From a bacterium (GTDB lineage: Bacteria; Myxococcota_A; UBA9160; UBA6930), in contig JAAELW010000415.1 in the NCBI GenBank assembly GCA_024226235.1, positions 1 through 62,475 on the forward strand: a DNA stretch of 62,475 nt, read 5' to 3'. Both the position numbers and the translations under genes were made by a program. Below the pieces are notes generated by a model. That model ran no database searches. It had not been told where the DNA came from and saw only the letters and a program-made list of their open reading frames with translations. This document shows positions 10,282-18,917 of the stretch, piece after piece (the first letter of the stretch is position 1; every line of letters begins with the position of its first letter).

Positions 10282-11601
10282 TCAGGGAAGAACCAGGGTC
10301 GGCGGTCCCTGGAAGGCGGGCGTCACCGCGACGGTTCCACCGTCGTCGATGGTCACCAGGAACTTGCCTTCCGCAGCGGGCAGGTTGTTCTTGTTCAGGA
10401 ACGCGGCGTCCAGCGTCACGGTGCAGGGCATGCAGGCCGAGGAGATCTCGAAGTAGCTGCCACCCAGGACGAACTTCGCGTCTCCCCCCGCGCCGTTACC
10501 CCAAGGTTTGACCGTCATGAAGCCGGGTGCCGAGGCGATCGTGAGGAACGTGGTCGAGGTGAAGTTGTAGAACTTGAAGGAGACATTCCGTTGGCCGAAA
10601 TCGAGCACGACATCTGCATCGAAGACCCCAAGATTGGGCGGTTGGAGCAGTGCCCCTCTCTTTTCCCAGATGTATCTTCCCTGGAACAAGTCCGCGAACT
10701 GGACGAGCTGCTGTACGGATGTCATGCCTGGCGGGTACGTCAGCGTCCCCGTGTTCTGCGCGAGGTTGGCCAGGCCGGATGAGTCACCGCCCTGCAGCGC
10801 GGACGGATCGAGGGCTTCGATCGCTTCACTTCGCATTGCGACACGCGTCGGTGCGGTCCCGGCCTCCCGGCCGGAGACCCGAAGCGCTCCGGCGGCTCGC
10901 CAGGGTTCATGTGGTCCGATCGCCCTGTTCTGCTCGAAGTGTCCGAGAGGTGGACCGGTGGGCAGTGCGGGCAGGAATCCCAGATCCGCCGCGTCCACAT
11001 GGAATGGAGTCGAGGGGGGGGCCGTGCCGGAAAGACGCACGCCGAAGCCGGGTGTCACGAGATCTTCCGAGCCGCCCGGAGTGCGCACGTGAAGGCCTCC
11101 GACGCGTTCGTCGGCATCGTTGAAGGGCCCCGGCCCTAGAAGGGCCACGATGCTCTCGGAATCCCCGACCCGGGCCGCAGCGATCGTGCCGCGAATGCCG
11201 ATACTGCCCTCGGGCAACTTCAGGTTCACGTTCTCCGGCTCGTCTCTTGCGACCTTTCCGGTGACGAATCGAAACACGCCCTTGGCCAGGGTGGCGTCGA
11301 TGCGTCCGCCGCTGGCATTCGGATCGTAGACGAACTCGTCGATCGTCATCTCGCTGTCGGGTCCGAGTGTGAAGACGGTTTCGTCGAGAAGCAGGATCTG
11401 CAGGCCACCCACCTGATCGGTGCGGATCACATCGCCCATCAGGATCGGGTCGCCACTCTGCACCACCAGGCCAACCTGTGGTGCACGGTCCATCCTCACC
11501 TTTCCGCGCACTGCTGCAGCCACACCGGCCTGGAATGAGGTCGCAGGGGCCGCGCAGAGCAGGAGCAGGGCAATCACACCCAGATATGATTTCCGCACCA
11601 T
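10282..11601 (-). CDS. FecR-domain periplasmic/surface protein with C-terminal beta-rich domain
   Basis: The protein is 439 residues. A signal peptide (1-22, ATSFQA) precedes a FecR domain (about 28-140) containing VRGKVRM, GDVIRTDQVGGLQILLLDETVF and FVTGKV. A low-complexity middle follows. The last 130 residues are beta-rich (DVVLDFGQRNVSFKFYNF, AKFVLGGSYFEI, GKFLVTIDDGGTVAV), reminiscent of a small barrel such as those of Slam-exported lipoproteins. FecR domains read the state of an outer-membrane partner and pass it inward. Its ATG lies one base after the stop of the outer-membrane barrel gene (TGAGATG), and the CHASE2 cyclase leads the same operon, so the three probably act together. Ligand unknown. 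Confidence 0.82.
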   Translation of the reverse strand: MVRKSYLGVIALLLLCAAPATSFQAGVAAAVRGKVRMDRAPQVGLVVQSGDPILMGDVIRTDQVGGLQILLLDETVFTLGPDSEMTIDEFVYDPNASGGRIDATLAKGVFRFVTGKVARDEPENVNLKLPEGSIGIRGTIAAARVGDSESIVALLGPGPFNDADERVGGLHVRTPGGSEDLVTPGFGVRLSGTAPPSTPFHVDAADLGFLPALPTGPPLGHFEQNRAIGPHEPWRAAGALRVSGREAGTAPTRVAMRSEAIEALDPSALQGGDSSGLANLAQNTGTLTYPPGMTSVQQLVQFADLFQGRYIWEKRGALLQPPNLGVFDADVVLDFGQRNVSFKFYNFTSTTFLTIASAPGFMTVKPWGNGAGGDAKFVLGGSYFEISSACMPCTVTLDAAFLNKNNLPAAEGKFLVTIDDGGTVAVTPAFQGPPTLVLP

Positions 11602-11602
11602 C

Positions 11603-13024
11603 TCAGAACTCCCAACGCCGAGTGAGCAGGAAGCCCAGCTTCAGGTTGTCGTAGGTGAAATTCGGCAAGTTCGACGAACTCCACAGGTACTCGGCGGTCA
11701 ACGAGAACACGATGTCGGCCAGGGGCCCCTTGATCAGACCCCTCGAGAGGAATGAAAGTGGCGCGCCATACATCAAGCGGGAGCGAATGATCGCCTCCCG
11801 ACGGACCTTCGTGGAGATGAAGGTCTGGGCGTCTTTGTACCGGTTCCAATCGAAGGAGGCGCCGGCCAGCACGAACTGTCCGCCACCGGGCAGCCAGGTA
11901 TGTCGGAAGCCCAGGGTCGGTCCCCAGTAGGAGAAGTAGCGTCGTTGGGCGGAGCGGTTGTGGAAGCCCAGGGCCATCTCGCTGCGATGGCTGGGCGAGT
12001 GAATCCATTGGAGGTCGCCGCCCACGGTCGTTTCGAGGCCCGTGCGCTCGTAGGCCCTGGGCGAGTCCGGGATGCCGTCGTAGTCGAAGGATTCGACTCG
12101 CACGAGGCCGCCTGCCCGGAAACTGGAGGAAAGGCGCCGCTCGCCCCGGACCTCCCCAGCCACGTTGCGAACGAATTTTTCGGCCGACAGATCGACCAGC
12201 CCCGCAATCAGCCGCAAGGTCCAATCGACTTCCGGTGTCCGCAAGCGCAGGCCCAGCTGTCCGGTACCGGAGCGCACGTCGAAACGTTCCTGTTTTTCCT
12301 GTTCGGCGTTGTAGTAGCTGATGGCGCCGAACAGGGTGTGCTGTTCCTGGTCGCCCACATCGCGTTCGAAGGCCAGCTCGCCGATCGTCAGATAGCTGTA
12401 GTCGTCGTCCTCGGTGAGGCCATCACCCAGCTGGAAGCGGAAGTCGCGCACCAGCAGTGTGTCGGAATGAGGCGCCGAGTTCCGGTTGCTGTCGTACTGG
12501 GCGCCGCCCGAGAGCGAAAAACTGCCTCGGGTCCGGCGCTTGCGGCGCTTGATCCGGCTGGCGTATTCGGAAGCACTGGCGGCGAGTGCGGCCGTAAGCT
12601 GTGCTTTGCGAACCCGGCTCAGCTCGGCCTCGGCACCGTCGAGATCATCGAGGCGGAACAATACGATCGCGTGGTAGAGGCGGACGTTCGCCAGCTCCGG
12701 CTGCAAGAGCAGGATCCGTTCGAGGGGCGCAGCGGCCCCCTTCAGGTCCCCGCGTGCGACCTGGTTGTCGGCCCACTGGATGTTGATCTCGATGTCGTCG
12801 GGGTGGGCCAATACGTCGGCGTAGCTGATGTCTGCGTGAGTCGGTCGGAGATCCGCCGCCTGGTCCGCTCCGGCCTGGGCTTCGCGGCTACTGTGGATGC
12901 CACGTTCGGCGGTCTCCTGTTCCCGTTCCGGTTGGAGGACCTGGCCCGCAGCTGTCGATGCCAACAATGTGATCATCGTAAACAGCCAGATGAGTCGGTT
13001 GCTTTGCGGATCGATGCGACGCAT
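11603..13024 (-). CDS. Outer-membrane barrel protein with N-terminal TPR (surface-lipoprotein-assembly-modifier-like)
   Basis: The product is 473 residues. A signal peptide (about 1-27) is followed by TPR-like helices (70-160: NQVARGDLKGAAAPLERILLLQPE and the helix after it). From about residue 167 there is a beta barrel opening with SGGAQYDSNRN and ending in the C-terminal aromatic TRRWEF, the usual BAM signal. TPR plus a roughly 14-strand barrel and the 'YDSN.N' turn are hallmarks of SLAM/DUF560 proteins, which move lipoproteins to the cell surface. Next to a FecR-domain protein and a CHASE2 cyclase it could either translocate the FecR protein or sense it. ATG 13024 is chosen for signal-peptide fit; the ribosome site is weak. 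Confidence 0.75.
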   Translation of the reverse strand: MRRIDPQSNRLIWLFTMITLLASTAAGQVLQPEREQETAERGIHSSREAQAGADQAADLRPTHADISYADVLAHPDDIEINIQWADNQVARGDLKGAAAPLERILLLQPELANVRLYHAIVLFRLDDLDGAEAELSRVRKAQLTAALAASASEYASRIKRRKRRTRGSFSLSGGAQYDSNRNSAPHSDTLLVRDFRFQLGDGLTEDDDYSYLTIGELAFERDVGDQEQHTLFGAISYYNAEQEKQERFDVRSGTGQLGLRLRTPEVDWTLRLIAGLVDLSAEKFVRNVAGEVRGERRLSSSFRAGGLVRVESFDYDGIPDSPRAYERTGLETTVGGDLQWIHSPSHRSEMALGFHNRSAQRRYFSYWGPTLGFRHTWLPGGGQFVLAGASFDWNRYKDAQTFISTKVRREAIIRSRLMYGAPLSFLSRGLIKGPLADIVFSLTAEYLWSSSNLPNFTYDNLKLGFLLTRRWEF

Positions 13025-13109
13025 GGAATTACCATCGGCTGACGGCTTTCCCAGCTGGAGAGGGAGTTTCGACCCGGGAGCTGCGTACCCGTTGGCACGC
13101 AGCTGCGGA

Positions 13110-15305
13110 CTACTTTGAGGTTGCCGTGAACACGCCATCCCACTCTTTGGGGGGAGAATCCACCCGGAAACACTCGATTCGTTCGCGGATCAGCTTGTAC
13201 AGGCCCTCCAGCTCGGGTGCGGCCTCAGCGCAGATCTCGCATCGCTCCAGCGCTTCCAGCCACGCACAGCTGCGATACGCCTTCAAGAGCCCCGAGTGCT
13301 CAGCGCGCAGCTCCAGAAAGGCGGGAGTCTCTGCGTAGCTCGCATCCCCGACCAGCGCGTGAATGCGCACGGCCTCCTGCTTGCCTCTCACCCGGATCAG
13401 ATCGAGTTCGAGCGTCGCGAGTTCTGGTACCGCGCTGCAGGTTTCGTCGCCGAGAATGATGTCCACGCCGTAGGTCTTCGACTGGCCTTCGAGACGCGAT
13501 GCCAGGTTCACGGCATCGCCGATCACCGAGTAGTCGAAGCGTTGCTCACTGCCCAGGTTGCCGACGCAGGCTTGTCCGGTGTTGATCCCAATGCCGACGC
13601 GCAACGGCCCGATCTGGTTGTCTTCTTCGCACTCCAGCTCCTCGTTCAGCAATGCCAGGGCTGCGTTCATCGCAAGAGCGGCCTCACAAGCAAGGCGTGC
13701 GTGGTCGGGTACATCCAGGGGTGCGTTCCAGAAGGCCATCACGCAATCGCCCATGTATTTGTCGATCGTTCCGCTGTGCTGGAGGATGGCTTCGCTGAGC
13801 GGTGTGAGCAGTCGGTTCACCAATTGGGTGAGAGCCTCGGGGTCCAGCTTCTCCGACAGGCTGGTGAAGCCGCGCACGTCGCAGAAGAGGAACGAGAGCT
13901 CGCGCATCTCGCCGCCCAGCTGGAGCCGTGCGGGATCACGTGCCAGCTCGGCGACCAGGGCCGGTGCCAGATAGTGGCCGAATGCGCCACGCACACGGCG
14001 GCGCTGGGATTCTTCGGACAGATGGCCCAACACCGAGCCCACGAGGAAGACCGCGAGCACGCCGAGGGTGGGTGTCACCGGATCGAAGAGCCAGCTGAGC
14101 TCCGTGAAGGCCCAGGCGCTCGCTCCAATGGCTGCGAGGCTGGCCAGGACCAACACTCCCGCGCCCACGAGTGCGCTGGAAAAGCGAACGAGCAAGAGGA
14201 CGATGAGACCCAGCAGAGCCGTTGCCGTCCACTCCAGGCCGAGAGCGAAGCCCGGCCGCTCCAGATGGTGTTCGAGCAGGATCTGTTCGACCAGCTCGGC
14301 GTGCAACATCACGCCAGGCAGTGCAGGATCGAGGGGTGTGGCCCGCTGATCCTTCAGGCCGATCGCACTGGTACCCACGAAAGCGATCGCGCCCTCCAGG
14401 CTGCCCGGTGGAATCTCGCCGGCCAGCACGCGCCAGGCCGGAAGCACGCGTTTCTTGGGCGTATCCGTGAAGTGGATCCAAGCGGCTCCCTCGGGATCCG
14501 TCGGTATTTCGAAGTGGGGCGGGATTGCGATCGAGGAAATCCCCAGATCTTCGTCGGAGTTCTCGGCGCGGATCACGTAGCCGCGACTACCGACCGCGAC
14601 GCGAAGGGCTTCCAGACCGAGCCCCGGAACTACCGCATCGCCATGACGGAAGACCAGCGGGACCCGTCTGTGAACGCCGTCTGGATCGATTCGACCATTC
14701 AGCGAGCCATTTCCCTGTGCAGCTTTCTCGAGTTCGGCGATGCTGGGTACGGCGCCCGGAAAGCTCGGCACGCGGCGCAGCGGATCGCGTTTCGAGGCTG
14801 CATCCGTCTTCACTCCAACCGAGTATCTTCGCGTCGGTGCCCGGTCGCGTTTGTCGGTGACCAGGAAGAAGCCTGTCACCGTCGGGACCGTGGCGATCTG
14901 CTCCGCGAGCAAAGCATCCGGATCGGGCAATGTCTCGAGCTCAGCCCGGATAGCGGGATCCATGTCCGGCCAGGCTCGGGCGATCGGTTCGGGCCCCATC
15001 CGATCGGGCTCGGCGAATACCACATCGAACGCCAGGGCTGCCGCACCCTCAGCATGCACGCGCATCACCAGCTCCGCGATCACCCGCCGTGGCCACGGCC
15101 ACTGGCCGATCTTCGCCAGACTTGCATCGTCGATATCGATCACGCGGACCCCCGCATCCTGCCACGGGCGGGGCCAGCCGCGCTGGAGCTGGTCGAAGAC
15201 CTGATTGCGTAGATTCACGATCGGGCCGGGCTGGGCGCGTACCAGCACCAGCACGGCCAGTAGGACGATCAGCGGAGCCAGAATGCGGGCGCGGGCCATA
15301 CCCAC
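13110..15305 (-). CDS. CHASE2-domain adenylate cyclase (class III)
   Basis: The protein is 731 residues. TM1 (8-24) leads to a periplasmic CHASE2 sensor (about 30-345; VIDIDDASLAKIGQWPWPR and GFFLVTDK are typical). Further TM segments lie at about 355-430, then a cytosolic class III cyclase domain (465-650). Catalytic residues are visible: metal Asp476 (FCDVRGF) and Asp520 (DKYMGD), purine-selecting Lys517 and Asp591 (FDYSVIGD), and transition-state Asn600 and Arg604 (NLASR). The Lys/Asp pair predicts ATP, hence cAMP, rather than GTP. It is first in an operon with a barrel protein and a FecR protein. GTG 15305 and ATG 15299 are both possible starts; GAGG lies upstream. Confidence 0.92.
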   Translation of the reverse strand: MGMARARILAPLIVLLAVLVLVRAQPGPIVNLRNQVFDQLQRGWPRPWQDAGVRVIDIDDASLAKIGQWPWPRRVIAELVMRVHAEGAAALAFDVVFAEPDRMGPEPIARAWPDMDPAIRAELETLPDPDALLAEQIATVPTVTGFFLVTDKRDRAPTRRYSVGVKTDAASKRDPLRRVPSFPGAVPSIAELEKAAQGNGSLNGRIDPDGVHRRVPLVFRHGDAVVPGLGLEALRVAVGSRGYVIRAENSDEDLGISSIAIPPHFEIPTDPEGAAWIHFTDTPKKRVLPAWRVLAGEIPPGSLEGAIAFVGTSAIGLKDQRATPLDPALPGVMLHAELVEQILLEHHLERPGFALGLEWTATALLGLIVLLLVRFSSALVGAGVLVLASLAAIGASAWAFTELSWLFDPVTPTLGVLAVFLVGSVLGHLSEESQRRRVRGAFGHYLAPALVAELARDPARLQLGGEMRELSFLFCDVRGFTSLSEKLDPEALTQLVNRLLTPLSEAILQHSGTIDKYMGDCVMAFWNAPLDVPDHARLACEAALAMNAALALLNEELECEEDNQIGPLRVGIGINTGQACVGNLGSEQRFDYSVIGDAVNLASRLEGQSKTYGVDIILGDETCSAVPELATLELDLIRVRGKQEAVRIHALVGDASYAETPAFLELRAEHSGLLKAYRSCAWLEALERCEICAEAAPELEGLYKLIRERIECFRVDSPPKEWDGVFTATSK

Positions 15306-17651: not shown

Positions 17652-18917
17652 ATGTCCCAGCCGCCTCCATCGGTCGATAGGTCCGGAATGGGGCACCCCA
17701 ACCTGTTTCTCGGTCGCCAACCGATTGTCGATCGCAACGAGCGGATCGTCGCCTATGAGCTGCTCTTCCGCTCGTCGGCCGCGAGTCAGAAGGCGGATTT
17801 CAGCGACCAGAACCAGGCCGCGGCGAGCGTCGTGGTCGATACCTTCATGCATATGGGGCCGAACCAGGTGTTGGGGGCCGCCCTGGGCTTCTTCAACGTC
17901 ACGCGTCAGGTACTCGAAAGCGGCTCGATCGCAGTCTTGCCAGCAGATCGCGTGGTGATCGAGATCCTCGAAGACATCGAGCCCGACGATGTCGCCATCG
18001 CCGCCTGCGAGGCACTTCGCAAAGAGGGCTTCTCTCTGGCCCTCGACGACTACGTACCCGGAGATCCACGCGAGGAGATGCTCCCGCTGGTGGACTGGGT
18101 GAAGGTGGACCTGCTGGAGACGGACCCGAAGAAGTTGAAGCGCCTGGTACGCCAGCTGCGCGCCACCGACGCCAAGCTCCTCGCCGAAAAAGTCTCCACG
18201 CGCGCCGAGTTCGAGCATTGCCACGCCCTTGGCTTCGAGTATTTCCAGGGCTTCTACTTCGCCCACCCGGAGATCTTGACCGGTCGTTCGATGAAGCCCG
18301 AGCAGGCTGCGCTCTTCGACCTGATGGGACGCCTCCAACGCGATGAAGACATCGCATGCGTCGTCGAGGGGTTGAAGCCTCATCCGGGCCTGAGCGTGGG
18401 CCTGCTGCGTATCGCCAATTCCCCAGCCATGGCGCGTGCCCAGCGCCTGACCCGAGTGGAAGATGCGCTCGTCTTTGTCGGCCGCCGCCAGCTGCATCGA
18501 TGGCTCGCAGTGCTGCTGTTCGCCGAAGGATGCCCGGGTGGTTTTCGGGATCCGCTGCTCATTACCGCCGCCAAGCGCGGCCGCTTGCTCGAACTGGCGG
18601 CTCTCCACCTGGACGTGGCCGCCGCCTGGTGTGATCGCGCGTTCCTGGTCGGAATCCTCGCATCGATCGATGCCCTGCTGGGCCGACCGAAGCAGGATGT
18701 GGTCCGGGAGCTGCATCTCGACGAAGAGTCGGAAAGCGCACTGCTGACCCACTCGGGCCGGCTCGGTGAACTCCTCTTCGCGGCCGAATCCTTCGATCGA
18801 AGTGAGTTCGATCGTGTAGAAGAGTCACTCGAAAGGCTCGGAATTCCCGCAGCTGAATTCCAGCTGGCCGAGATCGCCGCCTACGCTTGGGTCCACAACC
18901 TCGGCCTCGAGTCGTAG
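17652..18917 (+). CDS. EAL-HDOD signalling protein (YuxH-like)
   Basis: The protein is 421 residues. The N-terminal half (about 18-215) is a degenerate EAL domain: LGRQPIVDRNERIVAYELLFR replaces the EAL signature with YELLFR, and the usual metal ligands are not recognisable, so c-di-GMP hydrolysis is unlikely. The C-terminal half (about 220-410) is an HDOD domain with NSP and LLRIANS, also without a catalytic HD. This architecture is known in regulatory proteins that bind rather than cleave nucleotides and affect motility or biofilm. The start is ATG 17652; an internal ATG at codon 13 gives a more typical N-terminus. It converges on fumarase with 17 bp between. Confidence 0.88.
   Translation: MSQPPPSVDRSGMGHPNLFLGRQPIVDRNERIVAYELLFRSSAASQKADFSDQNQAAASVVVDTFMHMGPNQVLGAALGFFNVTRQVLESGSIAVLPADRVVIEILEDIEPDDVAIAACEALRKEGFSLALDDYVPGDPREEMLPLVDWVKVDLLETDPKKLKRLVRQLRATDAKLLAEKVSTRAEFEHCHALGFEYFQGFYFAHPEILTGRSMKPEQAALFDLMGRLQRDEDIACVVEGLKPHPGLSVGLLRIANSPAMARAQRLTRVEDALVFVGRRQLHRWLAVLLFAEGCPGGFRDPLLITAAKRGRLLELAALHLDVAAAWCDRAFLVGILASIDALLGRPKQDVVRELHLDEESESALLTHSGRLGELLFAAESFDRSEFDRVEESLERLGIPAAEFQLAEIAAYAWVHNLGLES

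Follow-up and report, generated by a model that had tools for sequence, protein, structure and literature searches.

The 62,475-nucleotide contig JAAELW010000415.1 (assembly GCA_024226235.1; this whole stretch is referred to as the window), from a bacterium of the Myxococcota_A (UBA9160; UBA6930), encodes side by side a CHASE2 class III adenylate cyclase, an outer-membrane barrel protein with tetratricopeptide repeats (TPR) and an exported FecR-domain protein, which probably form a three-part trans-envelope relay. The stimulus of CHASE2 has been listed as unknown (PMC5192318). According to our survey, the usual element upstream of this sensor would be a FecR protein that has a partner in the outer membrane. 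The gene content, domains, catalytic residues, conservation and co-location of the trio were observed directly; as to the contact between FecR and CHASE2, the direction of the signal, the export of the FecR C terminus and the ligand, we infer the following. The outer-membrane TPR-barrel would hold, and perhaps export, the FecR protein, whose periplasmic FecR domain would report the state of the barrel, or that of the exposed FecR C terminus, to CHASE2. CHASE2 would in turn set the cyclase activity and hence the level of cyclic AMP (cAMP), which may be read by one or more cNMP-binding proteins of the genome. Nine cNMP_binding matches were found in this genome, none of them tied to the trio cyclase.

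The three genes and their products

All three genes are complete open reading frames on the minus strand, as are all their features described below, with a gap of 85 bp from the cyclase stop to the barrel gene and of 1 bp from the barrel stop to the FecR gene. The collinear arrangement described in a first-pass annotation, made from the sequence alone, was thereby confirmed. The 5.07-Mb genome contained a single CHASE2 match and a single FecR match, both in this trio. Identities to a same-genus relative were 82% for the cyclase, 82% for the barrel and 77% for the FecR protein. The corresponding ratios of nonsynonymous to synonymous substitution rates (dN/dS) were 0.11, 0.12 and 0.17, and such low values indicate purifying selection on all three genes.

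The cyclase (731 aa; 13110..15305, with a GTG start at 15305 and an in-frame ATG at 15299) matched the Pfam families CHASE2 (E 8.7e-53) and Guanylate_cyc (E 1.4e-19). Its periplasmic CHASE2 sensor, together with the N-terminal and following transmembrane helices, spans 14196..15263, and the catalytic domain spans 13374..13904. The latter contains D476, K516, D520, D591, N600 and R604, so that the metal, adenine and transition-state residues of class III are all kept, in agreement with the complete catalytic set that had been read from the sequence before.

The barrel protein (473 aa; 11603..13024) was modelled with AlphaFold from 13 sequences at a mean predicted local distance difference test (pLDDT) score of 81. 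The model showed TPR-like helices (residues 68-162; 12539..12823) followed by 14 long beta strands, predicted to form a beta-barrel (residues 165-472; 11609..12532). The window protein alone gave a weak TPR_19 match (E 0.0027, under the cut-off), and TPR_19 was matched by all 25 aligned homologues. A YDSN motif occupies residues 177-180 (12485..12496), with N180 invariant in 25 homologues.

The FecR protein (439 aa; 10282..11601) carries a signal peptide without a lipobox and matched Pfam FecR (PF04773; E 7.9e-8, 33.1 bits against a cut-off of 24). Lipidation was considered and rejected, as no lipobox precedes Cys16 and the preceding residue is Leu. The model of its FecR domain (residues 57-154; 11140..11433) matched the cell-surface signalling (CSS) domain of PupR. 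A disordered linker of ~90 aa (approximately residues 201-289; 10735..11001), the least conserved part of the protein, leads to a beta-rich C-terminal domain (approximately residues 290-439; 10285..10734) with conserved Cys390 and Cys393, which is a candidate surface or cargo domain. This C-terminal domain was common to other window-type loci and Thalassospira. Two related loci showed additional FecR copies: in a same-genus trio (L186, 6197-13372) the FecR gene was present as a tandem duplicate, and G027 (L039) had two FecR genes too.

Distribution and genetic context of the trio

A gene-neighbourhood search for the trio, suggested as a check by the first-pass annotation, found it across other families, classes and phyla rather than in close relatives only. 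CHASE2 was present in 42 of 113 same-phylum genomes, and counts based on Pfam only, which are free of profile-training bias, gave about 17 CHASE2 places with a same-strand FecR gene within ~3 kb among the matches listed. A scan of named genomes yielded 80 relatives, mainly from Alphaproteobacteria (Thalassospira, Rhizobium, Bradyrhizobium and Ruegeria), and also bins labelled Elusimicrobia, Omnitrophota, Marinimicrobia, SAR86 and betaproteobacteria. Close to the cyclase (0-2 kb), 614 one-kb windows gave 71 FecR hits, versus 6 hits in 1,268 such windows at 3-8 kb. This ~25-fold enrichment may be somewhat inflated, as some of the copies used to build the FecR and barrel profiles were themselves linked to cyclases.

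A barrel-profile search of the window's order gave ten strong matches; window-type barrels with enough flank adjoined both FecR and cyclase genes in 7 of 7 cases, and those at contig ends had FecR alongside in 2 of 3. Among 33 cyclase loci with full flanks in a rhizobial-order sample, FecR lay within 3 kb in 21 and the barrel in 7, all 7 of which also carried FecR. The barrel was near CHASE2 in roughly half of 21 barrel-positive genomes of a rhizobial-order sample, and several of the remaining barrels adjoined FecR proteins without a cyclase. A TPR-barrel and FecR pair with no CHASE2 gene nearby was also seen within the window's order (L090, 7797-10452). The gene order was cyclase-barrel-FecR in the window genus and barrel-FecR-cyclase in other families, and the arrangement was divergent in L103, L118, L215 and L256 and convergent in L109 and L133. 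Since the linkage survived such reshuffling of order and orientation, it argues for a functional connection and not for operon inheritance.

Both the output and the outer-membrane partner were exchanged in some loci. In a trio from the window's order (L047, 5280-10409; G094:C9) with the gene order of the window, a CHASE2-GAF-HD_5 protein of the HD-GYP type replaces the cyclase, which is, to judge by its domains, an output swap towards cyclic di-GMP. In a same-phylum locus (L064, 6950-17054), the CHASE2 protein next to FecR is a histidine kinase, and the locus also encodes a member of the OmpA family and a Ser/Thr kinase-receiver protein. A third locus holds FecR, cyclase and OmpA together. The constancy of CHASE2 and FecR while the output and the outer-membrane partner vary supports a direct link between the two, and these natural swaps make the idea testable by domain exchange. 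In a further locus, L173 (747-10016; Ensifer sp. PDNC004), a CHASE2 cyclase gene is accompanied by short genes for FecR and TPR proteins; beside them lie a cluster for NHLP-type bacteriocin export and a gene for a protein that binds cyclic nucleotides.

Comparison with known signalling systems

In Sinorhizobium meliloti, cyaK on pSymB is directly preceded by a gene whose end coincides with the first base of cyaK. Its product of 1190 aa matched FecR (1.8e-15), contains several TPRs and gave a weak match to the barrel at its C terminus. We provisionally take this gene to be nsrA. Experiments on this cAMP signalling system showed that S. meliloti responds to the protein uL2 only if it has both the CHASE2 cyclase CyaK and the outer-membrane barrel NsrA (PMC7529298, PMC13001267). 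Like the trio, the NsrA-CyaK(-Clr) system (PMC7529298, PMC13001267, PMC5498481) comprises a CHASE2 class III cyclase with adjacent FecR, TPR and barrel modules. However, the cyaK locus has these modules in one chain of 1190 aa, whereas the window divides them between two proteins; moreover, the ligand uL2 and the receptor Clr are known for NsrA-CyaK. A cluster of Campylobacterota, proposed to form a single pathway, contains a CHASE2 cyclase, a FecR 'outer-membrane protein', a TPR protein and a phosphodiesterase (PMC9239204). No phosphodiesterase lies beside the window trio, and the passages covered did not raise the TPR protein as a barrel or a link to secretion.

With these two precedents, the relay would be a split variant of an already known kind of system, and the trio may specifically be a split form of NsrA-CyaK. 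That the barrel and FecR would act upstream of CHASE2 is supported by this homology. The first-pass annotation had proposed a course from outer-membrane state through FecR and CHASE2 to cAMP. The conserved unit and the NsrA-CyaK barrel precedent lend this course partial support, but because NsrA-CyaK senses an outside protein ligand, the outer-membrane state becomes only one option for the stimulus. As NsrA does, the relay may respond to a ligand from outside or to contact at the surface rather than to outer-membrane damage.

Two other systems share parts of the arrangement. The BiofilmReg operon of Burkholderia, consisting of a response regulator, a LysM-FecR protein and a CHASE2 histidine kinase (PMC5192318), resembles the window in that the CHASE2 sensor adjoins an exported FecR protein; it differs in its histidine-kinase output, in the LysM domain on the FecR protein and in having no outer-membrane barrel. 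The FecA-FecR-FecI relay also runs from an outer-membrane protein through a periplasmic FecR domain to the inner membrane, and the model of the window FecR domain matched the CSS domain of PupR. In contrast to that relay, the FecR protein of the window is free and exported, starting with a signal peptide instead of the cytoplasmic anti-sigma domain of such a relay, and the output is a cyclase. Neither a sigma factor nor a FecA-type, TonB-dependent receptor was found among the scanned neighbours, so the earlier remark that a sigma factor is missing beside FecR held.

Besides the possible inflation of the distance counts, there are observations that weigh against the relay. About half of the related cyclase loci had no nearby FecR. 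In S. meliloti, plants' signals are perceived without the FecR protein SMc02177, whose gene clusters on the chromosome with that of CyaD1 (SMc02176); this is evidence against a universal role of FecR.

Possible link to type 11 secretion

A more specific form of the relay, not exclusive of it, is that the barrel is a translocon of the type 11 secretion system (T11SS; Slam/DUF560) and the FecR protein its stalled or anchored cargo, with the C terminus outside, the FecR domain inside and CHASE2 reading contact or export. We consider this reading a serious one, with a chance slightly short of even.

Slam barrels have 14 strands, and the predicted layout of the window barrel, an N-terminal TPR region and 14 strands, would fit that of Slam. 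The window barrel itself had no match to Pfam SlipAM (PF04575) and only a borderline TPR_Slam match (E 0.014), so that we call it Slam-like on the strength of its relatives and predicted fold. The first-pass idea of a barrel 'as in SLAM' gained support from the TPR region together with the 14 predicted strands, and failed for the window barrel at the SlipAM profile. Two relatives in the same gene context exceeded the SlipAM cut-off of 22: the barrel of L103, which shares 31% identity with that of the window, scored 33.9 bits, and the one of L093 scored 28.3 bits. Barrel-only profiles of the window type and of the alphaproteobacterial type were homologous over ~290 columns with a probability of 99.9, compared with at most 1.1 in forty column shuffles used as a control. 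Two candidates from L091 were rejected: a SlipAM match in its genome as the trio barrel, which lies on another contig, and an in-frame fusion of cyclase and barrel, whose two reading frames differ.

The link to secretion gained further weight from the FecR proteins of the alphaproteobacterial trios. These are long, and their last 140 aa form a domain (profile A6). When this profile was compared with the PDB, fHbp and NHBA/GNA2132 chains were the sole significant matches (best E 2.3e-4), and among the seven A6 members six matched Pfam FHBP_C and five TbpB_B_D, with single scores just under the curated cut-offs. Both fHbp and TbpB are T11SS cargo (PMC12282271). A search of the surveyed loci with A6 found nine further proteins, all of them encoded immediately next to a barrel and none in any other place. 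The barrel subtype tracked the FecR C-terminal subtype. Furthermore, many FecR proteins of related loci bear adhesin-like modules (cadherin, Ig, CshA, VWA, FG-GAP, laminin-G or collagen). In four Bradyrhizobium loci (L134, L144, L146 and L149), FecR proteins of about 1400-1800 aa precede the cyclases, and the one scanned, from L134, is similar to surface adhesins in having laminin-G domains and domains of a cadherin-like kind. In L247 (9266-17654) and L249 (9417-16415), one TPR-barrel is followed by two FecR proteins, both with a cargo-type C-terminal domain; these loci hold additional FecR reading frames and no cyclase nearby.

With T11SS Slam/DUF560 proteins (PMC8406197, PMC12282271) the system therefore shares the N-terminal TPR region, the predicted 14-strand barrel and, in relatives of the trio, an adjacent protein with a C-terminal cargo beta-barrel. 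In the window, by contrast, the barrel falls below Pfam detection and the FecR partner ends in an unassigned beta domain. That C-terminal domain gave a profile probability of about 2 against the T11SS cargo domain and no sequence match in the PDB, which speaks against the cargo reading. Its model is poor (pLDDT about 50), and the fold match to NHBA (2lfu), the one of highest probability once structures of the FecR family and a single small, unrelated domain are set aside, is weak (probability 0.33, E 1.1). T11SS cargo is, moreover, normally exported whole, so that the cargo reading has to assume in addition that the FecR domain stays behind in the periplasm. Accordingly, the earlier suggestion of an exported FecR protein with a beta-rich end that could be barrel cargo stood as to the signal peptide and the beta-rich end, while the cargo domain escaped detection by sequence. 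Since its C-terminal domain showed no sequence match to the cargo domain, the window FecR protein is only a plausible cargo of the barrel. The full chain, in which a Slam-like translocon would show the FecR C terminus on the surface, the periplasmic FecR domain would gate the CHASE2 cyclase and surface contact or export would be turned into cAMP, is more tentative still.

The main T11SS papers (PMC8406197, PMC12282271) mention neither FecR nor a cyclase, and no mention of FecR together with T11SS was found in the literature searched; the association of FecR with T11SS cargo domains in the alphaproteobacterial relatives is apparently new. If true, the link to cargo would mean that type 11 secretion also serves in signalling, and it would account for the way in which barrels like NsrA act on a cyclase of the inner membrane.

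Alternative roles of the barrel and neighbouring genes

The barrel might instead be a porin or exopolysaccharide channel, with FecR and CHASE2 an independent periplasmic sensor pair and the three genes merely co-regulated. The exopolysaccharide-channel version stays in contention, since the structure matches of the barrel model included PelB and BcsC, besides OmpG, and no Slam structure was within its top 50 fold matches; FecR-CHASE2 pairs without a window-type barrel are common as well. This alternative nevertheless appears unlikely, given the co-variation of barrel and FecR subtypes and the existence of FecR-TPR-barrel fusions, in L168 and in the product of the gene that immediately precedes S. 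meliloti cyaK. In addition, adjacency in divergent and convergent layouts is unexplained by simple co-transcription. Nothing was found in favour of the view that the genes are neighbours by chance or through faulty annotation, and this view can hardly be credited given the conservation across families, classes and phyla and the low dN/dS values, and chance adjacency was rejected by the distance-bin control (0-2 kb versus 3-8 kb).

The scanned neighbours of the trio encode a peptidase M20, a penicillin amidase, a sulfatase, an EAL-HDOD protein and a fumarase. The EAL-HDOD protein (17688-18917) is encoded close to the cyclase, and the block of fumarase, EAL-HDOD, penicillin amidase and cyclase genes is apparently syntenic in the same-genus locus L044.

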